Origin: Thunnus maccoyii
Lineage: Eukaryota > Chordata > Actinopteri > Scombriformes > Scombridae
Reading direction: 5' to 3'
Assembly (NCBI RefSeq): GCF_910596095.1
Contig: NC_056539.1
Span: 6,770,501-6,834,500 of the forward strand
Length of the DNA stretch: 64,000 bases
Shown here: positions 17,205-62,841 of the stretch, piece by piece
How positions within the stretch are numbered: position 1 is the first letter of the stretch
How the letters are laid out: every line of letters starts with the position of its first letter
Made by a program: the position numbers and the translations under genes
The notes under the pieces: model-generated
The model's input: only the letters and a program-made list of their open reading frames with translations
The model's database searches: none
Told to the model about the DNA's origin: nothing

Positions 17205-20200
17205 ATGCTGCATTTGAGTAAGGTAAGAATGATAAAATATACATTTTATTTGAAAATGCCGCTCACAAAAGTAGTTTTGAGAGCTGTTCCGGCACTGGTT
17301 ATTTCCATTACAACAACTGGTTTCCCTAACTAGGGAGATTTTGTGTGGGTGGACTCTGGTGCCGGGGTGCCTATCGGGGCTGAGGTCAAGGTGACGGACA
17401 CTGGACAGCTTCAGCTGATTGATGATGATGGAAAGGTACAAAACCCACAACAATTTGCTCTCATCAGGTCCAGGACAATCAGTGTGAACCGTCTGTAACA
17501 TCACTTATTTCATAACACACATACAGGAGCACAAGATCAACAAGAAGACTGAGGGCACCATCCGGCCCATGCACCCCACCTCTGTCAAGGGTGTGGATGA
17601 CATGATCAGGCTTGGTGACCTCAATGAGGCGGGTCTCCTCAGGAACCTCCTGGTGCGACACATAGAGGGCATCATCTACGTAGGTTTCCATTCCCCAGAT
17701 TCATGCTGAACCACCCAGTTTTATGATGTCAATAACTTGCTGTAGAAATGCTTACTCACCTACATCTTCCCTCATTGCGAGTGGCTTTCAGCCTTAGACT
17801 TTGCCCCTCAATTTATCACAGTGCTGTTTGTCTCCATAGAGACGAATAACCCTCTGTTGAAAGAGAGTGTCCCAGTGTTTCTGTGTAACAGCATCAAAGC
17901 TCGACAGTGTGTCTTCAATAATGAATCAGGCCATTTTGTAGAATAAAACTACTAATGTTAACTGCTCGGGGCACTTTGCATTCATTTCATTAACCACAGA
18001 TTTTCACACAGCTCTTCATGATTGTAAACCATCCGTGAAATGTTTAAATCCATTGAGTCATATTTGGAACATGGATCCCATGCGGGGTCATCTGAGTCAC
18101 TGGCTTGATGACGTGCTTGCACCATAAGAACTTGTTTATGCTCATCTACACACACACTCATTAAATGTGCTTCTGTGTGACGGTTAACATCGCTCTCTGT
18201 TTGCAGACATACACAGGCTCCATTCTGGTTGCAGTCAACCCTTACCAGCTGCTGCCCCTCTACACCACCGACTATGTGCACATGTACACAGATCGACGGC
18301 TGGGTGAACTGCCACCACACGTCTTCGCCATCGCAGACAGCTGCTTTTTCAACATGCGCCGCAACCAAAAGAACCAGTGCTGCGTCATCAGGTTCTGCTC
18401 TTTTCTGCAAACAGGCTGCAAAGATGTTCTGAGACTAAGGCTGATTAGAGATGGTTTCATTTCGACTGTGTCAAGTATTTAAATGACTGATTAAAGCCTT
18501 AAGTTTTCAGGGTAAACGCTGATAGTTACATGAAATACAACATTTCCACCGAGTGACAGGTAATGGCGAGAGCAAAAATAAGCCCCTTCAACAACATGTT
18601 TTTCTCTACCATATCTAAGGCCTTTGACAGAGCAAAACAATGTTGATTTCCAAAGGTCAAACCCATGTGTAAGACATGGACGGATTGAAATAAACAATGA
18701 AGGAAATCATAAACGAGGAAGTAAAGTACATATTTTCATGCTAAACAAAGGACATTATTAAATGCATCTTCTCTAAACATGCTTACTTCTCTATTTACCC
18801 CCTCAGTGGAGAATCAGGCGCAGGGAAAACTGAAAGCACTAAGCTCATGTTGCAGTACCTGGCTGCAGTGAGCGGGCAGCACTCCTGGATAGAGCAGCAG
18901 ATTCTTGAAGCCAACCCCATCCTGGAGGGTAAAACACCAATACAGAGTTATAAGGCAGTTATAATGAGCTGAAGCCCCCTTTTAAAACAATTAAAAAGCG
19001 CTTTTAACTTGATTTACTTTCATGAAATGTATGTTTCCCTCTCAGCCTTTGGTAATGCCAAAACCGTTCGCAATGACAACTCCAGTCGTTTTGGGAAGTA
19101 CATTGACATCAACTTCACCAAGGGAGGGGCCATTGAAGGGGCCCGTGTTGAGCAGTACCTGCTGGAGAAGTCCAGAGTTTGTCGTCAGGTGGGGAAATTG
19201 AATATTTCCAGGAATAGTAACGTGGTACAAGTCAAATCTTGTGGTGAAGAACATGTGCTTTCATGTGCAGGCACCTGAGGAAAGAAACTACCACATCTTT
19301 TACTACATGCTGATGGGAATGCCAGCTGACCAGAAAAAGATTCTGTCACTTGGGAGCGCTGCAGAGTACAACTATCTGACCATGGTACTGAAAGAATTTG
19401 AGAAACTAGAATTGAATAAAAAGCTTTTTTTTATTGATGGATACATTTTAAAGAGGCGGTACGGTGGTGCAGTAGTTAGCACTGTCACCTCACAGCAAGA
19501 GGGTTCGAACCCAGAACCCTGAATCAGGGCTCTGGGTTCGAACCCAACGGCTGGCTGGGGCTCTTCTGTGTGAAGTTTGCATGTTCTCTCCGGGTGCTCC
19601 GGCTTCCTCCCACAGACCAAAAACATGCAGGTTAGGTCAATTGGTGACTCAGTTGCTCAGGTGTGAATGTGAGTGTGAATGGTTGTCTGTGTCTATACTA
19701 TATGTTAGCCCTGTGATTTACTGGCAACCTGTCCAGGGTAGACCCTGCCTCTCGCCCATTGTCAGCTGAGATTGGCTCCAGCTCCCCCATGACCCTCTAG
19801 ACTCTCTCGAGGATAAGCGACCCTCTAGAAGATGAGCAGTAAAAGAAAATGGAAGGATGGATGGACATTTTAAAGATAAATACATAGTGTGAATCACAGA
19901 TATCAAGTTTAGCTTTAAACTGTGTGATCCTATCACCAGGGTAACTGCACCAGCTGTGAAGGGCGTGATGATGTGAAGGAATACGCTCACTTCCGTTCAG
20001 CTCTGAAGATCCTCATGTTCACAGAGAATGACTCCTGGGAAATCTGCAAACTGCTCGCTGCAATCCTTCACATGGGAAATGTAGACTTCAAGGGTAAGGA
20101 CAGTACTGTATGTACTGTAAATGTATATTCAGTAGATTATTATTGTCAAATTTAACACATTATTGCTGCAGCTGTTGAGCGCATAATTTCCCCTTAATTT

Positions 20201-23200
20201 CAGCCACCATAGTGAATAACATGGAGGGCTGTGACATCCTCTCATCGTCACATTTCAACATGGTCAGCCAACTGTTGGAGGTATGTGTAGATTTTATAGA
20301 AAAGCAGTTAAGATGAGAGTTGAGATGATCTTCTCTGACTGTGTTTGTCCCGTTATCTCAGGTGGACCCTAAAGCGCTGGAGAAGAGTCTGACTCAGCGC
20401 TCCTTCATGACGGCCAGAGAGAGTGTGACCAAACATCTGACCTCGGCCCAGGCTGTGGACGGCAGAGACGCCTTTGTCAAAGTAACATAAGTCACACTTG
20501 ATCTAAGTTCTTCTAAAGCAAAAATTTATTTCAGAAATAAAGGCAGCTCATTTTAATGTAATAAACTTAAATTCTTTAAAAAGAGGACATATGCATCTGT
20601 AATGCTCAGAATTTTTTGATTCTGTTCCACCAATGAGGCAAACAACGAGGGATGAGGATGGTGCCAGAGGAAATATTGTGTTGTTACATCTGTATAATGG
20701 CTGTTGACTTCTCAGCTCGTCAGGCATCGTCAGAATTGGTTCAGCTTTTATCAGTCTAAGCTAGTGGTTCCCAGCCAGAGATATATGTGATGACTGTTAC
20801 ACAAAATCATATTTATTTTTCCTGGCCTTTTTCTAACTTTGTTTTTTTTTTTCTTGTGAAATATGCTACTGGGTACTTCAATCTTCTAAGGCCTCTGAAA
20901 ATCCTTGAAACGTAATCTTTGGTTGAATGGCTCACAGCTCATGGCCGCATTAAAGGCTTATCCTGCAACAAGGGGTTGCAAGTACACACTGATTTGTTTT
21001 ATGGGGTCACACACCAAAAGGTTTTGGAACTACTGGTCAAAGCTGTACTTTGTAAAGCTTAGCTCAACATCCATCCGCTTAGCAAAATTCCTCAGTTTGA
21101 CCTTGGCTCAGCTGTATTTAGGTTTGAGCTTAATATTAGTGTGAACAGCTGAGCTGTTGAGCATGTGAGCAGCATGCTAGTTATAACATTTAGGCTTTTA
21201 TCATGTTAACATGCTAATGTTTAGTATGTACAGATACATGCTAACGTGTGTATGTTGGTATAACATGTTAGCATTAAGCTCAAAGTACAGCATAGGCTAA
21301 CAGGAATACATCTGTTTTTCAAATATTCATAAACTGAAGTGTTGGACAAGAGGAAATTTTGTCCTGTTGGTGGTGCTAGATTAAAACTCTCCAGGACTTA
21401 CTTTCTGAGCACCATTTTTAATGTACCCTTTATTTAACCAGGTAAATAAGGGACAGTAAACCCATAAGGTTTTAAATGGCAGCATTAAAGTTGCAGTCAA
21501 AACAACACAAAATCAGGCAAATGACAAAACACTATTACAAATACAGATAACAATGCTAAAATGGCTACAATTAGGCTAAGGACAGAGAATTAACAAGTCA
21601 TTTACCATAGTTTGGAAGTGTGTGTCTGTCAAATTTCATGACATTGGATCTTTTGTGTTGTTTTAGTTGATACAGTATGCTATTCTCTGTATTATTTGTC
21701 TAGGCTATTTATGGAAGACTCTTCATTTGGGTGGTGGGCAAAGTCAATGCTGCCATCTACAAGGCCCCTGAGGATTCTGAAGAGGTTCAACAGTCAATTG
21801 GCCTTCTGGACATCTTTGGCTTTGAGAACTTCACCAAAAACAGGTTAGAGTTCACATCAGTTCTCCTGACATCATCGCTCTGTTGCTGCTGTTTTTTAGA
21901 CAGTTTTACTTACGCAAACTAAAATGAATCCATCTTTCCCCTTGTAATGTGGTCTTTGTTGCAGCTTTGAGCAGCTCTGCATCAACTTCGCCAATGAGCA
22001 GCTGCAGCAGTTCTTTGTCAGACATGTTTTCAAGCTGGAACAGGACGAGTACACCCGTGAAAACATTGTTTGGGAGCACATTGACTACAAAGACAACCAG
22101 TCCACCCTGGATGTACTCGCCAACAAACCTCTGAACATTCTGGCTCTTGTTGATGAGGAAAGCAACTTCCCCAAGGTCACTATCCTCCTTGTCTCTCATA
22201 ACATTCTGCTGCAACAAATGAAAGCAAGTTTTAACCGTCAATTTTTTGTTTATTTTCAGGGCACAGATACCACTATGCTCCAAAAAATGAATCAGGTCCA
22301 CGGAAAAGGTGACATCTATATTCCTCCCAAGAACAACTATGAGACACATTTTGGAATCCATCATTTTGCTGGAGTGGTCAACTATGACTCAAAAGGTAGC
22401 CTAATTCTTTAACTATCAACAAGCCATTCTCCCTCACGTCCTCTGTGATGTCCTCATTGTATATGTTTTGTTTCAAGGTTTCCTCGAGAAAAACCGTGAC
22501 GCCCTCAGCTCAGATCTGATTCAGCTGGTGGAGACCTCCACCAACAAGCTCCTAAAACAGACGTTCAACAGTGAGCTGTCCTCCAATACGATCAAGAGCA
22601 GCACCAACCCCAAGATGGTCATCACCGTGAACAAGAACTCTCTCCGGGTCAGTGCAGCTTTTAGCATTTAAGACACAGCTATGGACAAATAAAATACCAT
22701 TATTGTATATAATTACTTATACTATGTGACATTTGTTTCTGTCTGACAGCAAGCAAATGATAGTAAGAAGCGTGTGCTAACTTTGAGCAGTCAGTTCCGT
22801 CAGTCTCTGGATTCCCTGATGAAAACACTGACTGTGTGCCAGCCCTATTTCATACGCTGCATCAAACCCAATGACTTCAAGAAGCCCATGGTGAGAAGAG
22901 AAGCTACATTTACTCAACCAAAATAAAAAAAAACATGCTCATGTCTGCACCAAAATTGCATAAATCCATTTGTTTGTTAGTAAATCACACTTGTGTGTCT
23001 CAGCTGTTTGACAGAGAGCTGTGCTTGCGTCAGCTCCGTTACTCCGGTATGATGGAGACGATCAGGATCCGGAAAGCTGGGTATCCCGTACGCTACACCT
23101 TTGACGAGTTTCTAGGCCGCTACCGTGTCCTGCTGAAAACTTTCCTCTGCGATCCAAAAACAGTGAGTTGGACGTTATTATCATTTCGATCTTGGCATCC

Positions 23201-26200
23201 TCACACCTTTTTTTCATCTTTTCTTGCTGTGATTGATTGATGATTCTTCCATTCTGTCAGGAAAGCAAAGAGAAATGCTGTGAAAGCATTTGTGAAACTG
23301 TGCTTACTGGAGAGGGCGACTGGAAGACTGGAAAGACAAAGATATTCCTGAAGGTGCTGCCTTGCATTTTTTAATGTTGTTAGCAACGGTTGTGTGAAAG
23401 TATATAATAACTCATTTAATAGTTATGTGGATGTTTTTTCCATCAATGTATTACTGTTTTTTCTCAGGACTTCCATGACACTATGCTCGAACTGGAGCGA
23501 ATGAAAGAACTAAATGTGAAAGCACTTTTGATCCAGAAAGTGATCAGAGGCTACAAATACAGGTATGGGGAAAAAAAATCTTTAACATGTGTTGTTTATT
23601 GATGTGATTTACAACTACATGTCTGGATACTTTATGTCTTTTATAGGAAAGAGTTCCTGAGGAAAAAGGCAAGTGCTCTTGTCATTCAGAAATACTGGAG
23701 AGGACACAAAGGCAGAAAGCTGTACAAAGTGGTGAGTCTGGTGATATTCTATATTTTTCTTATTGTCATTTAATCCCATGAAAAGATGAAGCAGCAATAA
23801 GTTGATCCTACTAACAAGTATTGTCTTTGTATCCAAAGCCTGATCTCTGTCTCTGATATCTCATCCCTCTTTACCAGTGTTGTCAAAAAACAATTAAAAA
23901 CGTCACTATTTCACTGGGTCACATGCTTCTTCATTACCATGAACATGGGCACAGTAGTTCATTTTGAGTCAATTCCCGCACAATCTGTCCTGGTGCCATA
24001 AATGCTCATTAGAGCACTGAATGTGTATTAACTCACAGCTGAAAATGGTCCACAACAAATACGCTATTTACCGCTGTTTGTGTAACATTTGCCAAAAACT
24101 ACGATGCCCTGCTGTTTTTGTGACTCTGCTAACACGTTGTTGGTTTTCGTCTTTTCAATTATGTTCGAATTCTAGGTCCAGCTGGGCTTTGCGAGGCTCC
24201 AGGCACAGGTTCGCTCTCGCCAACTCCACTTCCAGTACAAAAAGAAGCGGGAGGCAGCTATCGCGCTGCAGGCCAAGGCCAGAGGATATCTGGCCAGGAA
24301 GGAATGGAAGCGCAAGAGAGACGCTGTGATCCTCCTACAGGCACACACCAGGGGTATGCTGGCAAGGAAAGCTCTCAAAAAGATGAAAAGAGATGTAAGT
24401 TCTTTTTTTTTAAGGATGACAATTGTAAGAGAATTCCCTGGTGGTTTTATCTGGCATTGAACCCCCAACTGCTCTAATATTGCCACTCAGTAAGCAGCAG
24501 CAGAAAACTGTGATTAAAATGGTAATTCTACAGTTAAAATATGATTATTTTTTAATCCTCATTCCCCCCAAACCACTGCTGTGAATAATGAGTAATTTGT
24601 TATTTGGATGCATGGTTAATTAGGTAGTAAAAGACATGCTGATCTTCCTTTGTGTTGTTACTTTCAGATGTACCTCTCTGCTAAAGAGAAAGAAGAGGAA
24701 GAGCGGCTCATCTTGGAGAGACAGAAACACTTGGAGGAAGTGTTGAGGCAGAAGAAGGAGATGGAGGCCAAAACCCAGTCGGAATCCATTACAGACCAGG
24801 AGATGGTGGACAGCATCTTTGGCTTTCTGCCCACTGTGGTTGGAGGGCAGGAGGGGCAAGCACCTGTGGGATTCGAGGTGTGGCAACTAAAAGCGTAGCA
24901 CATGTTCTGCTGGAGAAAGCAGCGTAGATTGAATGAAGCATCATATTCCTCTCTATCTGTTTTCAGAATTTTGAGGGGAAAAGGACAGTTACCGAGGAGA
25001 TCGACATTGACGACCTCCCCATGGAGGAAGAGCTTCCCAAAGAAGATTACGACGACCTGGATGAGTACTCCTTCTCCAAATTTGCTTCCATGTACTTCCA
25101 GGGTGCAGCCACCGCCACACACATCCGCCAGAGACTGCGACAGCCCCTGCTTTACCACGAGGATGAAGGAGATGTTGTGGTGCTTCTCTTTGATGACTTT
25201 AAATCAACATTTCAGTTTTTCTGCTCTTTTTATTTCACTAAAGTTACCATGCCGTCTCTCTTGTGTTATCATTAGGCTTCGTTGACAGTGTGGTGGATCA
25301 TTCTGAGGTTCTTAGGAGACCTCCCTGAGCCGAAGAAGCATGTGCAGGTCCAGGGAACCTCCACGCAGGATCGCTTTCTAGTGCAGGACGTGATGTCCAG
25401 AAAGGACAGACGTCTCAGCCACATGGTGGGCCTGGATCAGGTAAATACCTAACTGAATTTTTAAGATCAATGAATTTTTAAGATCAGACTGTCATGGATT
25501 TAAAAAAGCTCATTTTAAAAGGTCATTTCTGTCTGTCTTAGAGGGTGCTAAGGAATAAAAAAGAGAGAAAGCCTTCCACAGTCCCTGAGGAGCCGACACC
25601 AAACAGAAAAGGCTCCATTTTCACAGACCTGCTGACAAGAAACAGGAAAGCGTCTGCTGTTCCCAGCGAGGCGGCTTCAAACCAGAAGATATACACCGTA
25701 CCAGAAGGGAACCCTCGAGCAAGGAAGGGATCCACGTTCACTGACCTGCTGACCAGAAACAGAAAGGCATCCAGTGCTCAAGACACTGGAAGCCCAAGAC
25801 CCATTTCAAGCCTCAGGAAACCCTCTATCATCATGGAGGAGGTGAGGTGGAAACCTAGAATATATTCACTTTCTTTTTTTTTTAACTTTACTTTACTGAT
25901 GGCAATTTCATGTTTTTTTTCTGACAGTCAGAGGATCAGACTGAAGTGTCCAAGCCTCCCACTCTGCAGACTGTGAAGGAGGACAGTGATGTCATGACTG
26001 AAGAAGGACCCACTCTGGACCGGCCACTGACGTCTCTGGAAAAACTCCACATCATTGTGGGATATGCCATCGTCAGGCGTGACCTCAGGTTGTTGAAGTG
26101 TTTTTTTAGAATCACATACATCTAAGTATCTTTTTTATCCTCCGTTAATAAATGATTTAATCTTTTCTGTCCAGGGACGAGATTTACTGTCAGATCTGCA

Positions 26201-29200
26201 AGCAGCTTCAGGATAACAACAATCGCAACAGCTACTTCCGTGGTTGGATCCTGCTGTCCCTCTGTTTGGGCATTTTCCCTCCAAGTGACCGCTTCATAAG
26301 AGTAAGTACAATAGTGTTCATTCTGGCTCCTGATTTGGATTTAGTCTTAATCTTTTTGAAAATGTGTCGTAGCTTTAGTCAGATTTTAGTCATTTGACAT
26401 TTGTTAAACAAAAATTAAAGACATTTTAGTCTATTTTTTGTAATTTTTAATTTTTATGTGGATTTTGATGTCGCCATCTTTGTTGTGTACAGTTTCCATG
26501 GTTACATGTGTAATTCTTGTCTACAGCTTGTGAGGAGAAGCTAAAATGTCAGATAATCTAATGATGTTTCTTTCATGAACATCCAGAGGAAGATTTCAAT
26601 GGTTGACTGCATTAATCTTGGATGTTACTCATTGCTTCTGATAGCAACATGTCGGACTGAAAGTAACATTAATGTTACATCCACATCACTCAGTAATGTT
26701 ACTGTAGCTTACCTTATTATAAATGTCAGCATGCTGCCTGCATGTTTTTATAGTTTGTCCCAACTGTTTTGCTGCTGCATCTAATTGTCAGTGGACTGTA
26801 AATTAATTTAGTCCATGAATCTGTTACAGATTACAGGTAACAGACACATAATACTTAATGCAAGATGCTTCATATTAAAGGCAGTGCAGCAGGACAAGGA
26901 GACTGTTTTACTAATTCACAGCTAGAGTGTGTGACTCTGCACATGTATGCAGTTGTTGAGGTTGTTGAATCAGACTTTGCATTAAAACAGTAATTAATTT
27001 ATTTGTCCATTTATCATTCTTTCACATTATTGTTTCGTTTTTATTCATTGACAAAAAATGTAAAACCTGTAGTTACAGCTCTTATTTTCAAAGGTTACAT
27101 TTTTAAAGGTCATCAACAAATGTTTTTCATCACAGTTTTGTTTTCATCGACAAAATTAACACTGAAGTACAACAGTTGCTTTGGCTGCTTCAGACTCATA
27201 AACAGTAAGCCACATGCTGTGATGTTGTGCTCATCCCTTTTATCTCCTGTCTTGGCAGTACCTTCAAAGTTTCATCCGCTCCGCTCCAGGGGGCTACGCT
27301 TCCTACTGTGCTGAGAGGCTGAGGCGCACTGTAATGAACGGAGTGCGAGGCGAACCTCCAGCCTGGATGGAGCTTCAGGTACTGAGACTGATATAAGATG
27401 CTACAGCATGCTACATTTTAATGGGTCAGTGCACCCAAATTACACTTGGCGTCTAGTGGTTTTTTATCCACACAGGTAGTTTTGGTTGAATTTGTCCACG
27501 TTTGAAGGTATCAGGCTTTGAAATTTCTGATGCCAGCATTTCTCATTCCATTTAATCAACACGGTCGTTTTTCTTTGTGCTATGACAGGCAACCAAGACA
27601 AAAAAGCCCATGATTGTGTCTGTGACAGTGATGGATGGACGCTCCATCAACCTGCCTGTTGACTCAGCGTCTACCTCCAAAGAGATCTGCCAAGTCCTCG
27701 CCAACAAAGTCAAACTCAAAGACACATTTGGATTTTCTCTCTATGTGGCTCTGTATGAAAAGGTACAAACACTGATTCTATTTACTTTTCTTTATAACAC
27801 TGAGATCCAAATTCTTTCTGCACTTTGAGTGGAGAGAACGTAATGTACAAACGTGTATAAAGGCAACTGGGGCGGTCCCTCGCTGTGCCACTTCCAAAAC
27901 AGAATAAGACTTTGTCAGCCACACAATCCAAGTAGCTACACAACATCTAACAATTAAACATTCTATATGTTGTGGAAATATAAGATTTTTCTTGCACAGG
28001 TCCAGTATTGCAAACTTATCCCACCCTGCACCTGCAAAGCTTGGTAGCAGAACTGATTATTTAATGTAGAGCTGCAACAACAAGCCAATTAATTGGTTAT
28101 TCGATGTAAAGAAAATTAATGGGAATAGTCAATTAATCATTTAAGTAATTTTTCAAGCAAAAATGTAGATTATTTGATGGCTCCAGGTTCTTAACTTTGA
28201 GAATTTGCTGCTCACATAGTAGTAAATTGATTATTTTTAGGTTTTGGACAGTTGGTTGTGTAATGTGATGAGCATTTTTTCACAGTTTTCTGATGTTTTA
28301 TAGACCAAATGATTCATTGACTAGTTGCGAAAATAATCTGCAAATTAATCAATAATTAAAATAATCATCAGCTTTGTAGTGTATCTAGATATCCATAACT
28401 TTACATGTTGACGCGTCCTGAAGGTTTGGGCTCTGGGCAGCGGCCGGGAGCACGTGATGGATGCCATCTCCCAGTGTGAACAGGAAGTGAAGAGGAGAGG
28501 AGGGCAGGAGCAGCACGCTCCCTGGCGTCTCTTCTTCCGCAAGGAGGTCTTCACTCCCTGGCACGACTGCAAAGAGGACAAGATCAGCACAGAGCTCATC
28601 TACAAACAGATCATCCATGGTCTGAAGTGTGGAGAGTACCAGTGTGAAAAGGTGGGCTTATATTTGGATGATTCATTCGCAAAAATTTCGACCACACACT
28701 CTGATATATGATATATTTTTCCACGCTTCACTTCACACAGGAGGATGATTTTGTTCAGCTTGCTGCAAAACATTTGTACATCCAGCACGGCTCAGACAGC
28801 AGTCCAGAAAAGGTGAAGGCAGCTGTGCAGGACTGTGTCAAAAGCTCTCTGCTGGAGGACAAATCCGAGGACAAATGGGTGCAGATAGTCAGCACCGCTC
28901 ACGCTCAGGTCAGTCACATCACATAACAGAAGGTGAAGCATAGAGAGAATCAAAAGTTCACCATGTATAGGGAATATAATGCTCTTACACAGGTTTGAGT
29001 AGATTTAATGTTTCTTTGTATTTTTCTTTAACCGTACTAGGGTCCGTATCTGAGTTCAAGGCAAAAGACAGATTCAGTGAAGGCAGAGATGGTGGACTAC
29101 GCCCGGGAGAAGTGGCCCATGTTCTTCTCCAGGTTCTTTGAGGTTGTCAAGCTGTCAGGTAGGCAGCGAGTCACAGAAAACCTTTCTAGCCTTTCTCTTC

Positions 29201-32200
29201 TTATGTATGTAAATGACTTGTAGTTTGACAAATTGGGACGAGTGCATTAATTTCAAATTATACAGCTACAATTATATTGTTAATACATGAGACCATTGAC
29301 ACCCATCTGTGACAAGAAAGATTATGTGCATTTATGGCAACATTTCTGTGCTGATAATAACATCAGAATCAGAAGTACAAATAGCTTTGAATGATATAAT
29401 GATTGTATACATCACATACTCCATTATTATAAACAAACCAGGAACTGGTTTGTATTTACATTTTTCTAATCACTGCACAACATAAAACATATCTAACACA
29501 AACATTTCCACACTTTCCTCAGGAATGTAGAGACAAACACGCGTATCTATGTCAGACTGGAATATTCAATGCTAATTATAGACGTACTATACCACTGGGG
29601 TTAAGACTCCAGCAAAATAGTTCATTAAGAGGGAAGAAGTGGGCCAGGAACAAGATTTCTCTCTTCCCTGGATTTCAGTATTACAGCTGTTCAGTTTGTG
29701 AACAACCAATTTGCAAAACGATACATTCGAGCTGTCTAACAAAGATCAACTCAAACTCAGACACACAGTGAGTCTTTCCCCAAACTGATCAAGTTTATCC
29801 ACACAGGGAACAGCAATAAAGTAGTAAAATTCCTTTTGTTACTGTATGTACAGTAATTGTCTGATTGACACCATGCTGATAAGGTGGAAGATATCACAAG
29901 CTGCCAACAAGATTCCACAATATGAGTTTCCCAGTGAACAATGTAGAGCTGTTTATGCTTTATTTTAACAAACAGACAGTATGTGTTGACCCTGAAGAAG
30001 TGAAGGAGTCATGACCTCCTGTCAGGAGTATTGGATAAGCTGTCATCAGTGATGGAAGTATTCAGACCCTTTCTTTTAGCAACAAAATGAGCAAGTATCA
30101 AAACTAAAAGTACTTGTTCAGCAGAGAAGTGGACCTGTGTGAAATGATTACATTGTTAATACTTCACTGCATCACTGTATTTAACTGTGGTAGCAGATTA
30201 AGGTGAAGCTACTTTAAACTACTTTACAGTATATACAGTTAGGAAGATTAGTCCAGTGGTTTCCAACCTAGGGCTCAGGCTCCCTCCAAAGAGTCACAGG
30301 ATAAATCTGAGGGGTCGTGGGATGAGTAATGGAGGTCGGAAAGAAGGAAAAAAAAGTTCTGCTACATGAATTTGTTTTAATTTCGTTGGACTTTTCTTTA
30401 ATCTTTGCTTTTTTGTGAAATATTGGATAATTTTACCTCCTTGAGCCTTGAACAGTTATTTAAATGATACAGTGTGTCAAGTTTAGAGGGTAAATCTTTC
30501 CCTTTCGGAACTGCTTACAACTCATTGACATCTGAAACGTGACAAACCAAAGGGTTTGGGAACAACTGGTTTAATCTTTATCAGTGCATCGCATTTCACA
30601 ACAACAACAACAGTAATACAAGTCTTGCAGGTAAAACATGTGACTCATGTAACTGTTTTATCAGTTTCGCGTGGGGCAACTGCTCTGCAGGTTCGCACGA
30701 TTTGACTGTAATTGCGGTAACTGGGCGGAGATGAGCCTCCTGAATTCTCACCCAAAATGCTGTCAAAACTTTCATTTACACTTTCTACTGCAGAGTGCAC
30801 AGATAAAACACCCCAAATAACCATCACTCTGACAAACACTCAATGCAGAGTGAAAAACGAGAGACATCCGCAGACTGAAACAGATGAAAGAGCAGGAGGA
30901 GTTAACAGATAATTAGATTAGTTATGATCAAACATCCCAAGATATGAGTGGAAAGTATTGTTCTTGCAAATGCATTTATAACCTTTTCTTTGAATCAAAC
31001 GTAGCTTAACCATGTCATGTAATATGCTACTTCAGTACACTTTACCAGCAAATATTACTGGGACCACTACAGAAAATTGCAGATGAACATTTAATATCCA
31101 GGACTTTATATTATAGACACTACCACTGACTATCCCTGTAACACATTGGCCACAATTTCACACATTGACCGTAAATTAGCCCAGTCATACACTAGTTGTT
31201 GACCTAGTCTTGCTTAAATGCAGTCTGTTTTCTTTCTCACCTGCACCACTGCTCTGCTGTCATCTTTTACACTGTTTGCCTAGAGCCAGATTTTAAATAT
31301 ACTCTGTTAGAGCACAAGATCAATTTATCTCTCCCCCTTCTTGCTATTCTTTTTCATGTCACCCTTCTTGTAAAGGGAAGTGGTGCTGAAAGTATTCATT
31401 TATTAACAGAATTTAATCATCCAAAATTTTGATTGTTGAATATTGTTATTTATGAATAAAAATGAGAAACTTTCCTTGTTACTTGCTTCTCAAATGTGAG
31501 GATTTCCTTCTCTTAACTTTAAATTGAATATCTTTGAACAGTTGAAAAGACAAAAAAAGCAACACGTCACCTTGGACTCTTGGAAATTTTGATGGGCAAT
31601 TTTCCCTATTTTCTAACAGTTCATATGAATCAATTAATCAAGAAATTGATTGACAGATGATTTAATGATAAAAATAATTTAGCAGTAACCCTAAAGTGAA
31701 AACCGCCTCCTTACCAGTGAGTTGATTGTAGGGCCTCGTTGCCTGAAATGATACACAAAGGAAATGTGAGTAACACTTTAGTGCTGAACCGCTCTTGTTT
31801 CCCTTCATGGATGTTTCTAGGTCCTCCACTGCCTAAAAGCAAGTTCATTGTTGCCATAAACTGGACTGGCATCACATTCCTGGATGAGAGAGAGAAGAGG
31901 CTGCTGGAACTCTCCTTCCCAGAAGTCATCGGAGTTAACACCACCAGGTAGAGACGGCACAGAATCAGAGAAGGAAGCGAGAAACATATTATTACATGTT
32001 TGAATCCTTTGTTTTTGACTCTGCTGCGATGCCTCACACAGGGAGGGTAAAGTGTCTGGCCATGCCGTGTGTTTGCTGACTCTGAAAGGAGATTTCACTC
32101 TGAGCGGATCCACAGTGGAGGACATGGCAGAGCTGGTCACCATGTTCCTGAGTGGACTCACAGAGCGCTCCCAGTATGCTGTGTCTCTGAAGGAAGCCGA

Positions 32201-35200
32201 CAAGCAAGGTCAGAACACCAGAATCAGAATAGTGACGTATCTTTCTCACAATATCCTCACCTCACGTATTACTCTTGCTAACTTCAGATTCTGACCTCCG
32301 TTACTTTACAGATGACCCCACCTTCCTGAGCTTCAAGAAAGGAGAGCTCATCATAATTATCAAAGACGAGGAGTTATCTCAGGAGCGTGGTTGGATAAAA
32401 GGTCAAAACGAGAGAACCAAACAAACAGGAGCCGTCCCCACTGAGGCCATCCTAATCCTGCCAACACTCAGCAAACCCACCAAAGAGGTCATGGTACGGA
32501 GATGTCAACTGCACATCTATCTCTGATGGCCCTGGTTTTGTGGAGCATTGAATATGATGCATATTTTTTATTTTTTTTTTATTTTAGAGCCTCCTCAACC
32601 TGTCTCCCAACCAGAGGAAGGACGTCATACAGAAAGAAACAGGCACAGTGGAAAGAATAGCTCCCGCCACGCTGAAAGAATTCTCCGTCGAGTACTTCAG
32701 GTACCTGGAAATGCCCTCTGTTTTTCCACATCTTACATGTCTCGCTCATATGTAATTTTTCACCTGGAACAGCACTGAATGTGTGTCTTGTTTCCTGATC
32801 CCACAGGCAGCCCACTAAGGATGTGAACCGTCAGGTGATTTCGAGGAACGCTGCTCCCGAGAGGCTGTGGGTGAACTCCAGAGAGCCAATCAGGCAGCCC
32901 CTCCTCAAGAAACTGGCGAGCAACTCAGAGCTCAGCCACAAAGCCTGTCTGGCCTTCACTGATATCCTATACAGAATTATATGAAACAGTAGCATTTCTT
33001 ACCCTGTTACACCCATGAATGTATTATTTAACATTTTCAGAGGTTTAGTTTTTATCTGAGCAAAATCTCCAGGCTTTTCTTTTTCAAAGTCTATGAAGTC
33101 TGGATGATTCTTCTTCCTTGACTGTTGTGCACCGATCCTGAAGTATATGGGAGATTACCCCACCAAGCAGATGCAGAGTCCTCTGGAGCTCACCGACCAG
33201 ATCTTCGGCCCCGCCACTCAAAATGAAGTGCTCAGGGATGAGATCTACTGCCAGATCATGAAGCAGATGACCCACAATAACAACCGGTACGCTTCTGTTA
33301 CACTGTCACTATGTCAGGTTCTCACATCTTTTGAGGGGAAAAGGAAATGTTTAAAATAATATATAATGTTTAGTAATAATTCGATTTATTATGACGTATT
33401 AGAGTCATAATAAAGCAGTTGCTCAAAGGTATTGGCCCGTTCTGTTACAGTAATGATAAACTGTTTTATTATTACAGATGGTACATTTTAAAGCTGCAAC
33501 TCTTACTCAATTTATCAATTATTCAATTGACAGAAAATTCATCAGCAACGATTTTGGCAAAGAAAAAATGTCCAAATTCTCTGGTTCCAGCTTCTCAAGT
33601 GTGATGATTTTCAGCTTTTCTCTGTTTTATATTATTGTAAACTGAATATATTTGGGTTTTGGACTGTTGCTTGGACAAAACAAGACATTTGAAGAGGTCA
33701 ATTAGGAAACTGAAATGGATTTTTTTCTCTATTTTCTAACATTTTATTGACCGAATGATTAATCAAAAAAATAGTCAGTTGAATAATTGATAATGAAAAT
33801 ACTGTTGTCAGTTGCAAAAAGATAAAACTAAGACTAGTTGACTTACAGTAAGTAGCTAATCAGTAGCAGTTATTACCTTGTTTTCTTTCTTTAAACAGCA
33901 GGAAGTACAAACAGTACAAGAGCAATCTGACATTTTTCTAGAAGTGGAACTGAAATGCACCCTCCCATGTTTCAGTTCACCTTAGGTTGACTAGAGTGCA
34001 TTTTGAATACAAACCAAGACTCCATTTCATCATAAGCTTTATAGCATCTAGCATACATATTTTTGTTGTGTTGTCTCTGTCCATCACCCAGGTTCAGCAT
34101 GGAGCAGGGCTGGCAGCTGCTGTGGCTCTGCTGTGGCCTGTTTCCTCCCAGCCAGTCTCTTCTGAGGCACACAAAGCGATTTCTGGAGTCGCGGCGCAGA
34201 GAGACCCTGGCCACTGACTGTCTGCAGAGGCTGCAGAGCTCACTGAGGTTAACCCAACATATTATACTCTACGTCACCAACACACAGCACTGTGTACCCC
34301 ATTTTTCAAGAAGACCGGTGAATGAGATGAGGAGTACGATGAAAGTTTCTGCTCTTCCCCGATTTCATAATAACAATTGAAGGGTTTGTGCAAACAAAGA
34401 CAGCATTTATAGGGCAGCAAATGCTGCATATAGAGAAGCACAAGGCAGAAACAGTTATAGCGCTCCACCTCAGGTTAACCTCCACCATGACATAACACCA
34501 CGACAGGGGTGGTGAGAAAAGGAAATGTCATGGTCGTGGGGCCTTTTCTTTTAAAACTCCCCGAATCGCTCTCTAAAAGCTAAACTGATACAGCTGAGGA
34601 ATTCTTATTCTACATTTGTTGACAGGTTAATATGTAATATAGGGCAGAACTTGCTTGCAGCAATTATCACTCAACTTGACAGCAGAAACCACATTCACAA
34701 ACGCGTTACACCACCTTCATAGTGAGACCACACTGCATTTGCATGGCCTCCTCTATAAATAAATTAGATTTACATACACACATTGACAAAGGGCTCTAAG
34801 AGGCTTTTTTCTAATCAGCACAGCTGGCATTTTGGTTTTTGCCATTTTGGTGATAAGAGTGTGTTCTTTTTTTTTATCTGCACTGAATCTGTGGTTTAGT
34901 GTCAAAAAGATAAAGTAAAAATTACATAACGAAGCATTTGCTGTCCTTGTGTAGGATGGAGCCCAGGAAGCTCCCACCACACCAGGTGGAGGTAGACGCC
35001 ATCCAACAGAACAGCACCCAGATCTTCCACAAAATTCACTTCCCCAACGACACAGAGGAGGTGTGAACACGGACGTATCACATATATAATGTCACGGGAA
35101 AAACCCAGGTCAAATATTCTTTCATTAATACCAGTGAACTATCATCCTCCGTCAGGTATTTGAGGTAGCAACCAGCACCAGGATCAGGGATCTCATCCAA

Positions 35201-38128
35201 AATATCAGCAACAAACTCGAGCTGACTTCAGCAGACGGCTTCAGCATTTTTGTCAAAACACATGACAAGGTGCATTTGACATTTTTCAATCTTACACATC
35301 ATATCCTCATCTAGAATTCATGAATTTCCAGCCTGCAGGTCACATAAAGAAAGTAATTGTGTTCATTTTAGGTTCTCAGTTTGAATGACACAGACTACTT
35401 CTTCGATAGTCTGAGACAAATCACAGACTGGTCCAAGAAAGCCACGCGGGTCAAAGACGGTAAATAAAACATTATCTGATTAGCGTGCAAGTGATACTCT
35501 TGTATTTACCTTTAAAACGTCTTTGTATATATATGTGTGTGTGTGTGTGCTCTGCAGGTGGGACAGTCAGCATATCCTACCTTGTGTTCTTCATGCGGAA
35601 GTTGTGGTTCAATGTGATCCCTGGCAGAGACACAGAGGCTGATATTATCTTCCATTTCCCTCAGGTACATTTGAATGATGTCGCTCAGCCACCGTCTCAT
35701 TTTCCAGGCTGATAAGTTTTTTCCGCATGATATGAAAGCCAAATCTTTCCATGAACATAATCCTACCTATAGATGAGATAGCATCAGTACTACTCATTAT
35801 GATCAGTGAGAATGTAACAAATTAAAAAGTTGGACATTGAATTCTACAAACAGGCTGTAACCAGTTTTTTGTCTCTTAAATGAAAACTGGTTTTAAAGGT
35901 CAAACTTGAGCCCAAATCTGTTGACAATTCTCAAAATAACACACTTTATAGACTATCTTTCTGTCTTCCAGGAGCTACCTAAGTACCTGAGGGGCTATCA
36001 TGTTTGCACCAGAGAGGAAATGGTCAACATTGCGGCTCTGCTCTTCAGGATGAAGGCTAGCAATGACAAGAACCAGATTGTCATGATTCCCAAAATGCTA
36101 AAGGAGCTGGTGCCTGCAGACCAAGTGAAGGCCATGTCTGAGAATGAGTGGAAGAAGGTATGAGGGCCTTCCTTTTCATTCGTGTCATTTAAAGATTTCC
36201 TTTATCTACACCTTAAATGATATGGCTTTGTCTATATTATTCTTATTGTCAACAAATCTCATGAAAAGACCAAAACAAGTAAAACTTCAGTCCGTCTGTC
36301 AATACTTTCCAAACTCCCTTCCCTGTCTGTGACATTCAGCCCATTAGTTCCCACTGAAGATATAAATGTTTACAGTGCTTTGTGCTAAATGCTAAAGTCA
36401 TCATGCTAAAATGCTCACAATGCAGATATTTAGTAGGTAATGTTGACCATGTTGACCATCTTAGTTTAGCATGTTAGCATGCTAGGATTTGCAAACCCAA
36501 AGTACAGCTGAGACTAATGTAAATAGTTTTGGTATTTGACCATAAAGTCATTAGTCATCATAAATCATCATGATGAGAACATGAATGCTTGTACAAAATT
36601 TCATGGCATTCCTTCAAGTAGTTGCTGTGATATTTTAGTCTGGACCAAAGTAGTGGACCAACTGACTGACTGACATTGCTATTTCTAGATCTATGCTACT
36701 AATGCATCCAAAAACACGTCACAAATACATAGTTTCACTTTTAAAAAAGGCAAAATTTTCCTAAAACAGCCGGGCGCTGTAGTTTTTAAGCACACATTAC
36801 TCAAACAGGAGTAAACAGTTTATATGATGGGGACTATACACTACAAGTGGTGTGTAAGTGAATACAACGGCAAGATGTCATTTGTAGGATTGAGTCACAG
36901 TCTACAGTGCCCATGTTCTTGATGATGATTGAACATGTCACCCAGTGCAACATTGTGGCTCGTTAATATGATTTATAATAGTTTTTGAACAACAATGGAG
37001 CTCTATGGCACAGAAGAATAATATCAGGCTTTTGATGCACAGATAAACTTGCTAGTAACATCAATCTATCCTTGGTTTGGGTTTTTCATGGGATTTGTTG
37101 ATAATGAAAAAGATAGAATATAACCAGCCTATGAACAATATCACCATTATTGCGTTCCCATGATCCTATCTTAGTGCACTGAGAATATTGCCTGAAGGCT
37201 GTGGGGGTGTAAGAAAATCATTAACCTCATTTAAAACAGTGCGAACACAAGTGTATTGTATCACACTGTGACATATATATTTTTAATTTTTAGAGTATTG
37301 CCGCCTCTTATAACAAACAAGCTGGCATGACTGTTGAAGAAGCTAAGGTGGCTTTTCTGAAGGTGGTTTACCGCTGGCCGACGTTCGGCTGTGCATTCTT
37401 TGAAGTGAAGGTAAGTAGCGTGGTGGATGCAGCACAGACGGTGCTTTATCTTTCTATCTATTGTCCATTTGGTTGGGTGGGTGGTTTATCTATCTGATGC
37501 TTTAGCTCTTTTTCAGTCTGACAACATGGTATCCTAACTGCACAAGCTCAGAAAGCAGATGGTCATGATCACAGTGAAGGAGACAGTTTTCTCATCTTCT
37601 TCTTTCTAATTTTTATTTCAGCAAACATCGGAACCAAGTTTTCCAGACATTGTGCGAATTGCTATCAGCAAGCAAGGACTCACAATCATCCATCCCAAAA
37701 CCAAGGTTAAAAAAAATCAAAAATTGTCGTTAACAATATTTAATTAAACATCCTGGCAAGATTCCTTACCATTAACAATTCTTTTATTCTATAAAGGACG
37801 TGCTGGCAAATCACCCTTTCAACCGCATCGCTAACTGGTGCAGTGGAAGCACCTACTTTCACATGACTATTGGCAATTTAGTGAAGGGGAGTAAATTCCT
37901 GTGTGAAACTTCATTGGTAAGATATGTTTAGTATGTGAATCTGTCATGAGACACATGAGCTTTGAAGTGATTAAGTGGCAGTAAGTGTGCCCTGTTCATT
38001 TCCTTTTCTTTACCTCTGTCTTTTCTTAACAGGGTTACAAAATGGATGATCTTTTAACCTCCTATGTCAACATGTACCTCAGAGAGAGGAGGGCAGTGCA
38101 AACCAGGAACCAGCGCTTCAACATGTGA
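17205..38128 (+). CDS. MYO7B: Unconventional myosin VIIB heavy chain, 47 coding exons
   Basis: Actin motor of microvillar/stereociliary protrusions; MYO7B carries the intermicrovillar adhesion complex. Exons: 17205-17222, 17334-17435, 17527-17679, 18207-18391, 18807-18928, 19046-19188, 19271-19384, 19940-20093, 20204-20280, 20362-20481, 21704-21843, 21965-22175, 22260-22395, 22478-22647, 22750-22890, 23004-23162, 23261-23353, 23468-23562, 23647-23731, 24176-24394, 24668-24877, 24967-25179, 25276-25440, 25542-25841, 25928-26088, 26175-26301, 27259-27378, 27589-27762, 28424-28651, 28741-28908, 29041-29158, 31821-31947, 32042-32208, 32312-32493, 32588-32700, 32807-32961, 33133-33286, 34092-34247, 34955-35060, 35156-35269, 35372-35459, 35558-35664, 35972-36157, 37294-37410, 37622-37705, 37797-37916, 38033-38128. 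Total 2230 codons, frame closed (human MYO7B about 2116, MYO7A about 2215). Order: motor, five IQ, short charged helix, MyTH4-FERM, SH3, MyTH4-FERM. MYO7B over MYO7A rests on the SAP130/GPR17 neighbours and a FGFLP...GGQEGQA tail motif. The start (MLHLSKGDFVW) matches the MYO7A start pattern. Confidence 0.92.
19455..19864 (+). mobile_element. tRNA-like SINE with perfect target-site duplication, MYO7B intron 7
   Basis: Starts GGCGGTACGGTGGTGCAGTAG and carries pol III A-box-like (TAGTTAGCACTG) and B-box (GGTTCGAACCC) sequences, a central body (GAAGTTTGCATGTTCTC; GGCTTCCTCCCACAGACC) and a (GGAT)n tail, as in a widespread teleost SINE. A 12-base direct repeat, ACATTTTAAAGA, flanks it at 19443-19454 and 19865-19876. 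The B-box region is doubled: two GGGTTCGAACCC copies about 30 bases apart. Confidence 0.85.
20762..21035. mobile_element. hAT-like MITE, MYO7B intron 10
   Basis: Left end TAGTGGTTCCCAGCC and inverted right end CAGTAGTTCCAAAACC. The flanking 8-mers GTCTAAGC and GTCAAAGC agree at 7 of 8 positions, which fits a hAT 8-bp target duplication. No coding capacity. Confidence 0.65.
21150..21310. repeat. 'AGCATGTTAGCATGCT' family dispersed repeat
   Basis: Dense TTAACATGCTAA and ACATGTTAGCAT words typical of a repeat very common in percomorph introns. Other copies in this window are near 36350-36680 (opposite strand), 46068-46590 and 53490-54020. Confidence 0.6.
21418..21600. repeat. 'CCTTTATTTAACCAGGTAAAT' dispersed repeat fragment
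   Basis: Starts with the TTTATTTAACCAGG phrase frequent in fish repeats, followed by an AC-rich stretch. Classification uncertain. Confidence 0.4.
23468..24877 (+). other. MYO7B: Neck (IQ motifs) and short charged helix of MYO7B
   Basis: Five IQ-type calmodulin/light-chain sites are visible over four exons (cores [61 protein letters not shown]). They are followed by an Arg/Lys/Glu-rich stretch (residues about 884-920) that could be a short single alpha-helix, clearly shorter than in MYO7A. The segment ends with the [15 protein letters not shown] motif. Confidence 0.85.
23745..24010. repeat. Partial copy of the 'TTTTTCTTATTGTCAACAA' MITE family, MYO7B intron 19
   Basis: Shares TTTTTCTTATTGTCA, TTGATCCTACTAACAAGTATT and a central CAAAAAACAATTAAAAA with the complete element at 44786-45344. 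The right terminal repeat is missing. Confidence 0.5.
25578..25811 (+). repeat. MYO7B: 117-base in-frame tandem duplication in MYO7B exon 24
   Basis: Two 39-residue units, residues 1088-1126 and 1127-1165, each starting TVPE and containing RKGS(I/T)[12 protein letters not shown]. The 17-residue core is identical except one residue. It lies in the loop inserted in the first MyTH4 domain and supplies four basic-then-Ser sites (RKGS, RKAS twice each). Confidence 0.9.
28069..28375. repeat. 'AGAGCTGCAAC' family MITE-like repeat, MYO7B intron 28
   Basis: AGCTGCAAC and TTAATTGGTTATTCGATG at the left, AATTAATCAATAATTAAAATAA at the right, typical of a very abundant teleost repeat. It ends about 48 bases before the exon at 28424. 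Other copies: 31382-31692, 33490-33820 and 61062-61212. Confidence 0.65.
30045..30240. repeat. Dispersed repeat, 'gtGATGGAAGTATTCAGA' type
   Basis: Diverged copy, opposite in orientation, of the repeat at 3021-3602. Confidence 0.45.
30254..30568. mobile_element. hAT-like MITE, MYO7B intron 31
   Basis: Left end CAGTGGTTTCCAACC and inverted right end CAGTTGTTCCCAAACCC. Flanking 8-mers GATTAGTC and GTTTAATC agree at 6 of 8 positions. Same family as 20762-21035. Confidence 0.65.
31382..31692. repeat. 'AGAGCTGCAAC' family repeat, diverged, MYO7B intron 31
   Basis: Contains CTTCTCAAATGTGAGGATTT, TTGAATATCTTTGAACAG and TCAATTAATCAAGAAATTGA in the family order. The rest of this 2.6-kb intron (29159-31820) shows no coding signal. 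Confidence 0.55.
32312..32493 (+). other. MYO7B: SH3 domain exon of MYO7B
   Basis: Residues about 1639-1699: [11 protein letters not shown], a WIKG tryptophan and a TGAVPTEAI end, matching the SH3 fold that lies between the two MyTH4-FERM halves of class VII myosins. Confidence 0.85.
32962..33132 (+). other. MYO7B: U12-type AT-AC intron in MYO7B
   Basis: The intron starts ATATCCTAT (U12 donor consensus ATATCCTT) and ends AC. The U12 branch site TTCCTTGAC is at 33114-33122, its branch A 11 bases before the 3' splice site. Splicing here joins ACT G to CG ATC CTG, giving ...[12 protein letters not shown], in agreement with class VII myosins. No GT-AG alternative keeps the frame. Confidence 0.93.
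33490..33820. repeat. 'AGAGCTGCAAC' family repeat, MYO7B intron 37
   Basis: AAGCTGCAACTCTTACTC at the left, AATTCTCTGGTTCCAGCTTC in the body and TTGATAATGAAAATACTG at the right; the most complete copy in the window. Confidence 0.65.
36228..37124. mobile_element. MITE with a nested repeat, MYO7B intron 43
   Basis: The ends are inverted: TATTCTTATTGTCAACAAAT at the left and ATTTGTTGATAATGAAAAAG at the right, the terminal repeat of the 44786-45344 element. An 'AGCATGTTAGCATGCT' repeat (36350-36680) lies inside, which fits later insertion into the MITE. Confidence 0.6.
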
Positions 38129-43409: not shown

Positions 43410-44429
43410 ATGGAGTCTGCTAAAACAGAGCTGCCCTCCCTGCTGTCCAATCAGTCATTGCAGAGCTGTGTGGCAGTGGAGACGACCACCGAGAACATGC
43501 TCTTCGGATGCTTCTACATCCTGGTTTTCTTTCTGGCGCTGAACGGTAACAGCCTGGCTCTCTGGATCTTCTCTCACCAGCGTGGCGCTTCCTCTCCAGC
43601 TAACGTCTTCTTGATTCATCTGGCTGTGGCAGACTTGTCATACGTGATCATCCTCCCGCTGAGGGCCACATACCACCTCACTGGAGGCCACTGGCCCTTT
43701 GGGGAGGTGCCCTGCAGATTGGCAGGCTTTTTGTTTTATGTCAACATGTATGCCAGCCTGTACTTTCTGGCCTGTGTGGCAGGGGACCGTTACCTGGCTG
43801 TGGTTCATGCTGTGAGGTCGCTGAAGGTTCGCCGTGCTCGTTATGCTCACATCATCAGCTTCTCTCTTTGGGCCCTGGTTACCATCTCCATGGCGCCACT
43901 ACTAGTCACCCACCAGACTGCAGAAGTGGACGGCATGACAGTGTGTTTGCAGCTGTACAGAGAGAAAGCCTCACGCAATGCACTGATCTCACTTGCCGTG
44001 GCCTTCACCCCACCTTTCCTGGCCACCCTGTCCTGTTACCTGCTCATCATTCACAGCCTGCATGGGGGCTCCAGGTTAGAGCCAGCCCTCAAGCTGAGAG
44101 CCCTGCGCACCATTGGTCTGGTCATGCTTATCTATGTAGTGTGTTTCCTGCCTTATCATGTGAGCAGGGCCACCTTCATCCTGGGCTACAACCACCCTGA
44201 CATCTCCTGCCAGACACGCAGAGGCCTGAGCTTGGCTAACCGCCTCACCTCCTCCCTCACATGCCTGAACGGTGCCATGGACCCGCTGATCTACCTGTTT
44301 GGGGCGGAAAAGTTCCGTGGCACACTGATGCGATTGTTTTGCAAAGATAAGGCAGTGGCGTCAGGGGCCACCAGTGCAGAGTTAAAGGGAACACACGAGA
44401 GCTCTGTCAGTGCCAAGTCTGAGTTTTGA
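43410..44429 (+). CDS. GPR17: Uracil nucleotide/cysteinyl leukotriene-like receptor GPR17
   Basis: Rhodopsin-class GPCR of 339 aa in one coding exon, the length of the shorter mammalian GPR17. In mammals it sits at the plasma membrane of oligodendrocyte precursors and delays their maturation; ligand assignment is disputed. Seven membrane segments are visible: the first at about 31-54 with GN at 46-47, LAVADL at 71-76, GDRY at 125-128 in place of (E/D)RY, FLPYH at 246-250, and DPLIY at 291-295 in place of NPxxY, as in the P2Y-like branch. Cys102 and Cys179 can form the usual extracellular disulfide; Asn14 (NQS) is a glycosylation site. The start is the first ATG after the acceptor at 43401, within CCACCAATATGG. 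It lies just downstream of MYO7B as in mammals. The closest alternatives are P2RY or CYSLTR paralogues, but the neighbours favour GPR17. Confidence 0.93.
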   Translation: MESAKTELPSLLSNQSLQSCVAVETTTENMLFGCFYILVFFLALNGNSLALWIFSHQRGASSPANVFLIHLAVADLSYVIILPLRATYHLTGGHWPFGEVPCRLAGFLFYVNMYASLYFLACVAGDRYLAVVHAVRSLKVRRARYAHIISFSLWALVTISMAPLLVTHQTAEVDGMTVCLQLYREKASRNALISLAVAFTPPFLATLSCYLLIIHSLHGGSRLEPALKLRALRTIGLVMLIYVVCFLPYHVSRATFILGYNHPDISCQTRRGLSLANRLTSSLTCLNGAMDPLIYLFGAEKFRGTLMRLFCKDKAVASGATSAELKGTHESSVSAKSEF

Positions 44430-44785: not shown

Positions 44786-45344
44786 TAAAGGATATTTTTC
44801 TTACTGTCAACAACTCTCATATGCAGAGCCAAACCAACAATGAACTGATCCTACTTACAAGTATTGTGTGTATATCCAAAGTCTGATATATCATATTTCT
44901 CTGTGCTGTAGCTCCATTGTTGTCCAAAAACTATTAAAAATACATCAGTGAGCCACACCACTGCAATGAGTGACATGTTCCTTTGCCCCGAAGGCAATGG
45001 CTTCTGACTTTTTGCTACATTGTAAATTTCTCAAAGAACTTTAGTTAAAAGTCAAGAGATTGTGATATGTACTGCAACAAGCTAGTGAAGCTCTGTGCAG
45101 TGAAGCATGCACAGGAACAACGTGCTGTAGAAGGAACTACCCTCTGGAGACTGAAAACGTGATCACTGTTATTAGTCCTTGGAGCTGTTTCTAAACAAAC
45201 TATGGTACGATATATCAGGCTTTGTATGTGTAACGGGTGACACACAATACTTGTAAGTAGGATGAGTTATTTGTTAGTTTGGCTCTCCACATGACATTTG
45301 TTGACAATAAGAAAAATAAAGAAAATCGCCAGCAATATCCTTTA
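44786..45344. mobile_element. Complete MITE, 'AAAGGATATTTTTCTTACTG' family
   Basis: Long inverted ends: TAAAGGATATTTTTCTTACT at the left and AATAAAGAAAATCGCCAGCA to CCTTTA at the right. Inner parts pair too, including CTACTTACAAGTATTGTGTG with its complement. No coding capacity. Related copies are at 23745-24010 and 36228-37124. Confidence 0.7.
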
Positions 45345-48080: not shown

Positions 48081-49689
48081 ATGCCAGTTTATCAACCTTG
48101 GTGCCATGGCAATCTAACTCGATCCAAAGCTGAGGATCTCCTATCCAAAGCAGCAAGAGATGGAAGCTTCCTTATTCGGGACAGCGAGTCTATAGTGGGA
48201 GCGTATGCCCTGTGTGTTTTGTAAGTAGACAATACTTGTTTTCAGCTATTGCACATGTTGCTGGTAGTTTATTTTTGTACAGCTCCATAGAGCTGATGAT
48301 TCTTGTTCCTCGTTCAAGAAACCTTCATAACATGAAATATGCACTGATCCTAACTAATGAAAGAAAAACTGACATGACATAACTGTTATACTGTATGTTT
48401 TTGGCCTTAGATATGAGTAAAATAGTTATATCTGTAAATATTGTCATAATTTGGATGAATATAACATGATACAGGTTTGCCCTCCTGTAAAACACTGTAC
48501 AGTATCACTTTTTTTTGCACATACGCACTGCAACGACTAGTTCCCCTTTATTTGCATACTGTGCTGCTGCAGATATAATTCTCTTTGCCTCCGCGCTAAC
48601 CATATCATATTTCATGGGGCAACCTTCAATTAAAATGCTACCAAAACTGTTCTGACTGTATACTCAGCACACAATATACACCAGCTAAGATGTTCCTTTC
48701 ATTTACATTCATGTCATATTCTAGTGACATTTGCACTTTATTATTTTAACCACAGATACCAGAACTGTGTGTACACATACAGAATCCTGCCAAATGAGGA
48801 TAAGAAGCTCTCTGTCCAGGTGGGTTAACTGTTTGACAAATGCCACCATTATTTTGGTCAAAAGTTAGATGAGTGTTATGGTAATTGAGTCATTGTTGTC
48901 AAGTATTTACAGCATATATGAGAATAAAGGGCTATTTTTCTTCAAATATCAAAAGTAAATGGTGGCACGCAGCTATTTTTTTAATGCTGCTGCACCTATA
49001 AAGCTGTAACCTGATTTAAGAAGTACAATGTATTTAGATATACAGTATATTTGTAATAACCCTTCATTGGCTTGTAGCAATTTTTTTCTGGATTTAAATC
49101 ACATTTTGATCAAAACAGTTTAAAACAATTTCTAAATCAAATCTAACTTTTTACGACATTTTTTGTGTTTTTAATATTACCTCATTATTGTGTGACTGCT
49201 AATACTGACAAAGCATATTTTGGTTCATTCCATTTATTTATTTATAAGGACAACGCACACTAACTGACATTCCTGTAAATGTGCCAGTGTTAGCCAGCTA
49301 GCTAATTTTGAACTGCAGTCCTTAACTTGGCACTATCGGTGTAGTGAAAAATTAAGATTTGCAGACAAGAGACAACACCACAATGTAAAAACAACAAAAT
49401 AAACATTCTGCAAGTGATGCAGAGCACCAGGAAACAGCAAGTAATACTATAATACAGCAACAAAATTCAGTAATTGGTTCATGTAGTGGTGCAAAGCAAC
49501 ATGAGGCAACAAAATACAATCAAGCAATACTGATTATAACATGCAGTCATGCAGAGCAATAATAAACAACTGCAATAATCATAAAATTGATCTTGCTAAA
49601 ATGGTAAGAGAATTAGTTTAAGTCAGTAAAATGGTGATTAGAGTATGAATGTGTTAAAGGGGAGCTATTATGCTTTTCCTTATTTTCAG

Positions 49690-49770
<81 letters not shown>

Positions 49771-60440: not shown

Positions 60441-61061
60441 TTCAAATATCAAAGCTTGATTAGACTATGTTACTTTAGTTTTTTTTTCAATAACTGCATG
60501 AAACTGTGAATAAATATGTCTTTCAGTCTGCAATGGGGACCAAGCAGTATAGTACTGTAACACTCCAATCATTTGCTTCCCTCTGCTGTTGCATAAAAGA
60601 ACCACATGCAGAGTGAGAATGTCATGTTATCCAAATTAGTAATCATATTTAAATCATGGCGAGCGTATGACTAGATATTGTAAAAATATAAAGTCATCAA
60701 AACCTGAATTTTCTTGTTTTATTTTGTCCAATGAGTTGTGAATAAAGCTGACCTCCACTGTTCTGTCATAGTGTAGATACTGGTTGCTGATGGACACCAT
60801 TAAAAAGGGAATAAGGGAATTTTCACCATATTGTGACTTGATTTTTAGCGTTTTGTCTTCACAATGAATCAGTCCTGTATGACTGTTTTGTCCCTCATCA
60901 CCGGTAGTCCGGTCAATACACCTCTGAGGAGCTGAGCAGATGACACTGGGCACAAAGTGATGTGATTACCCGGAGCTCAAAGTGATGTCTTCAAATGTCA
61001 TGATTTGCTGGGTTCAGTTCAAAATCCAAATATATTTAATTTATAATGATACAAAAAAAAA

Positions 61062-61212
61062 AGCAGCAAATCCTCACATCTTCAAAACTGGAACAAGATA
61101 AATTTGGCAACTGTGCTTGAAAAATCATTTGAACAATTAATCAATTATGAATAAAGTTGCAGTTTTATCTTCTGTTGATTGACTATTCAATGTAATGTTT
61201 CAACTTTGCTGT
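61062..61212 (-). repeat. 'AGAGCTGCAAC' family fragment
   Basis: ATTAATCAATTATGAATAAA, TTGATTGACTATTCAATG and AAAACTGGAACAAGATAAAT match the family in reverse orientation. Confidence 0.5.

Positions 61213-62762: not shown

Positions 62763-62841
<79 letters not shown>

Follow-up and report, generated by a model that had tools for sequence, protein, structure and literature searches.

A very probable U12-type AT-AC intron in the second MyTH4 domain of a vertebrate MYO7B-like gene

Introduction

U12-type introns as a whole make up less than 0.5% of introns according to published abstracts, and a passage of PMC7367187 puts the AT-AC share of U12-type introns at 22% in zebrafish and 12% in two pufferfish. 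These figures, 12-22% of less than 0.5% in three fish, are consistent with the rarity claimed in the initial annotation of the locus described here, namely that U12-type AT-AC introns are well under 1% of vertebrate introns. AT-AC introns removed by the major (U2) spliceosome are also known, for instance in sodium channel genes, where the U2-type AT-AC introns carry G at +5 (PMC2831892, in the passage on these genes).

Among the genes of myosins with MyTH4 domains, mouse Myo10 has been reported to contain a minor intron showing retention in SMA mice, as stated in a passage of PMC6558932. A search of the open-licence literature in its partial text, supplementary tables excluded, did not find MYO7, MYO7A or MYO7B tied to a minor intron or to minor splicing, and the term 'myo7' is absent from the main texts of two zebrafish minor-splicing papers and one pan-eukaryote survey, again with supplementary tables excluded. 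Among the papers that surfaced in this search, PMC9604452 names Myo7A and the minor spliceosome in passages apart from one another, and PMC8703989 was rejected as a MYO7/U12 link, the match in its excerpt being a patient label, U1241. No myosin is among the 19 U12-type introns that a table of PMC2831892 gives for Drosophila.

Here we describe an intron at positions 32962-33132 on the plus strand of a 64-kb window (the whole stretch of DNA that was analysed). This intron lies in a vertebrate MYO7B-like gene and is very probably a true AT-AC intron of the U12 type that the minor spliceosome excises. It resembles the U12-type AT-AC introns of vertebrates in its ATATCCT donor core, its TTCCTTRAC branch site, the short distance from branch to end, its AC end, a phase other than 0 and its being alone among the U2-type introns of its gene, whereas it differs from them in having A rather than T at +8 and in its host, a class VII myosin. 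With the sodium channel U2-type AT-AC introns it shares the terminal dinucleotides; those introns have G at +5, whereas this one has a U12 donor core and branch site. With the minor intron of mouse Myo10 it shares a MyTH4 myosin gene as host, as far as the passage in PMC6558932 describes that intron.

Results and Discussion

The host gene runs on the plus strand from a first aligned motor exon to the stop codon (18207-38128), as delimited by similarity and placed exons, with further exons upstream unplaced. Its motor, first MyTH4-FERM and second MyTH4-FERM regions all find their best matches in class VII myosins among PDB sequences. Across three tail regions the VIIa and VIIb bit scores were 205.3 versus 195.6, 459.7 versus 445.1 and 224.9 versus 216.8, these being pairwise scores rather than a tree, and for the motor the best 60 of 134 matches contain VIIa only. 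Upstream of the myosin lie exons of a SAP130 gene (11374-11814 and 13938-14261, plus strand; Pfam SAP130_C, PF16014), and downstream lies a GPR17-like receptor gene that forms a single open reading frame (43410-44429, plus strand), which matches 7y89, the uracil nucleotide/cysteinyl leukotriene receptor, with 379 bits. We take 7y89 to be GPR17, and human MYO7B presumably also has SAP130 and GPR17 nearby. We use the name MYO7B because of these flanking SAP130 and GPR17-like neighbours, which support it, whereas the protein scores slightly favour MYO7A. The MYO7B identity given in the initial annotation stands as to a class VII myosin and a fitting neighbourhood, and the choice of MYO7B over MYO7A is made on the neighbours, VIIa scoring slightly higher in the tail regions compared. 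Further downstream, the catalytic part of a SHIP1-like inositol 5-phosphatase gene was found at about 54608-56905 on the plus strand, with phosphatidylinositol 3,4,5-trisphosphate 5-phosphatase 1 as its best PDB match. In human, INPP5D presumably lies elsewhere on chromosome 2, so synteny on the SHIP1-like side may differ.

The intron is 171 nt long and in phase 1, with its ends placed by spliced alignment to two references; ATATCCTATAC opens it and TTCCTTGACTGTTGTGCAC closes it. Its 5' splice site, ATATCCTAT (32962-32970), agrees with RTATCCTTT at 8 of 9 positions, the mismatch being A at +8, and its branch site, TTCCTTGAC (33114-33122), agrees with TTCCTTRAC at 9 of 9, with the branch A at 33121. 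This A precedes the last base, 33132, by 11 nt (position -12 when the last base is counted as -1), within the 11-13 nt optimum for U12-type introns, and the terminal AC (33131-33132) can be read from the sequence. Phase 1 agrees with the bias of U12-type introns against phase 0. As judged by eye, there is no pyrimidine run 3' of the branch, and T-rich bases lie 5' of it. With the start, branch and end signals of the minor spliceosome all present, the intron is very probably real. The coordinates, donor, branch site, branch A distance and terminal AC first recorded for it all match the bases of the window, and its reading as a U12-type AT-AC intron is borne out by each testable sequence feature apart from the A at donor +8 and the equivocal pyrimidine content around the branch. 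The U11 and U6atac snRNAs would each form six pairs with the donor by their letters, of which A at +8 breaks one, and we infer that a donor of this kind would be functional yet weaker than the consensus.

Removal of this AT-AC intron by the major spliceosome would have a precedent in the sodium channel genes. Those examples have G at +5, whereas the donor here has C at +5 and is accompanied by a suitably spaced U12 branch site with 9/9 matches, and we regard such a use of the U2 machinery as very improbable.

The motifs are scarce in the window. On the two strands of the 64 kb together, TTCCTTRAY has a single occurrence, the branch site at 33114-33122, while ATATCCT is found five times on the plus strand and three times on the minus strand. 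In 60 first-order Markov sequences the means per strand were 3.8 donors and 0.77 strict branch motifs, and strict donor-branch-AC pairs within 2 kb were absent from all 60. Two such pairs exist on the real plus strand, the second with a donor at 32251 and the same 3' end. When up to one mismatch was allowed in each of donor and branch, the whole window gave nine U12-like pairs on the plus strand and one on the minus strand; one of the nine is the intron itself and one ends at its 3' end. No other pair matched a placed intron of the myosin or SHIP1-like genes, the introns of SAP130 being outside this set. An Rfam scan of the window returned nothing at gathering scores, and a viral-contig scan returned no relative.

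The protein points to the same boundaries. The intron separates two exons of the second MyTH4 domain placed by spliced alignment on the plus strand, one at 32807-32961 ending in ...ACT G and one at 33133-33286 beginning with CG ATC CTG. The 193-residue peptide obtained by splicing them matches myosin-VIIa (PDB chain 5mv9, 205.3 bits) and myosin-VIIb (PDB chain 5mv7, 195.6 bits) with no gap across the join, the sole gap in these alignments lying about 45 residues upstream; as had been proposed, joining the flanks restores the conserved second MyTH4 sequence. We then scored single introns around the join over 577 donor/acceptor pairs in five classes, with scores summed over the two references, and 76 of these pairs were open and in frame. 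The AT-AC pair 32962-33132 came first with a score of 547, followed by an AT-AG pair at 32976-33143 (513) and another AT-AC pair (509), while the best GC-AG pair reached 469 with the loss of seven residues and the best GT-AG pair reached 389. The earlier statement that no GT-AG choice restores the protein therefore holds for single introns, at 389 versus 547.

Spliced alignment was carried out with a purpose-written program in which GT-AG, GC-AG and AT-AC introns were equally costed and which covered the gene parts that have a reference. When any dinucleotides were permitted at equal cost, exactly 32962-33132 was retained with both the VIIa and the VIIb reference, and the boundary is therefore set by the protein; in this run an exact tie went to AT-AC over the free class, and both neighbouring introns shifted off their GT-AG ends. 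One might suppose that the major spliceosome uses GT-AG or GC-AG sites here and that the AT-AC look is coincidental, since GT and GC dinucleotides exist in this region and the program still yields an open model when AT-AC is barred. With AT-AC and the free class both barred, this model consisted of two GC-AG introns flanking a 24-nt exon and scored 431 versus 477 (VIIa reference; a difference of -46), and the protein was restored by none of the 77 GT-AG or 168 GC-AG single pairs around the join, which leaves this explanation with a very slight chance of being correct. Slighter still is the chance of an assembly error or a decayed gene whose true sequence has ordinary splice sites. A single genomic copy lies behind the AT-AC sequence, but the placed exons are open across conserved coding sequence up to the 3' stop codon, and an error would need to make donor and branch motifs precisely at the ends that the protein demands.

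The AT-AC intron is the exception among its neighbours. Spliced alignment placed 21 introns in the myosin gene, of which 20 are GT-AG and one is AT-AC, with one of the GT-AG introns (20094-20179) weakly placed, its acceptor being close to the end of a reference segment. Reading the sequence near the 3' end of the gene added three further introns, all GT-AG, so 23 of the 24 placed introns are of this type, as are all four placed introns of the SHIP1-like gene downstream. The initial annotation had described all other introns as GT-AG, and this holds for the 23 others of the myosin gene, the weakly placed one included, as well as for all four placed in the SHIP1-like gene. Scored against the U12 consensus, these 23 introns reached at most 6/9 at the donor and from 4/9 to 8/9 at their best branch-like stretch; in this comparison one end was misplaced by a single base for two of the three tail introns. 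A high branch score does not by itself set the AT-AC intron apart, because other introns reach 7/9 or 8/9. An intron position common to the first MyTH4 domain was considered and rejected: the intron there (25180-25275) is in phase 0 and lies about seven residues off in a hand alignment.

If the intron is spliced as its signals suggest, U11 and later U6atac would pair with UAUCCU of the 5' splice site, and U12 would pair with UUCCUUGAC with the branch A bulged. Recognition by U11/U12 would be followed by replacement of U11 by U6atac and joining of the exons by the minor spliceosome, along the pathway described in passages of the review PMC3584512. Joining ...ACTG to CGATCC... would then restore the core of the second MyTH4 domain. 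Should splicing fail, translation would be expected to run into a premature stop from intron base 21, an in-frame TGA at 32982-32984 on the plus strand that is the first met when the intron is read through. Expression of MYO7B would accordingly be predicted, from the sequence, to depend on the minor spliceosome.

As for what is new, the intron adds one more case to a kind that is already well known, Myo10 offers a precedent among related myosins, and MIDB, IAOD or U12DB may already list it. By itself it is a modest catalogue entry, although as a well-supported candidate it adds a class VII myosin to the genes that depend on the minor spliceosome for their mRNA. If its class proved common to MYO7A, or traceable to the Myo10 intron, it would bear on the persistence of AT-AC introns in gene families and on the reading of splice variants in such genes. 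One lead comes from the human gene, where we assume an exon boundary of MYO7A at c.5326/5327. On the further assumption that residue 2215 is the last of the 5mv9 chain, chain arithmetic places the Ala split at the join at about residue 1776, which would fit that boundary. No MYO7A variant at c.5326 or c.5327 was found in the partial text of the open-licence literature. In an unlikely extension, other vertebrate class VII myosins, among them the Usher 1B deafness gene MYO7A, would also have a U12-type intron at this codon; the MyTH4 myosins, together with MYO10, would then contain ancient minor introns, and those of them that serve hearing and microvilli would be unrecognised targets of the minor spliceosome.

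The window also contains dispersed repeats. A pair of copies of about 1 kb (49665-50695 and 62737-63765) is 83.7% identical over 1048 aligned positions in the same orientation, and both copies adjoin TA-type simple repeats. Shorter copies, 72-80% identical and in mixed orientation, lie at 23751-23900, 33572-33703, 36931-37115, 44793-45318 and 60980-61107, and those at 33572-33703 and 36931-37115 fall within placed introns of the myosin gene.
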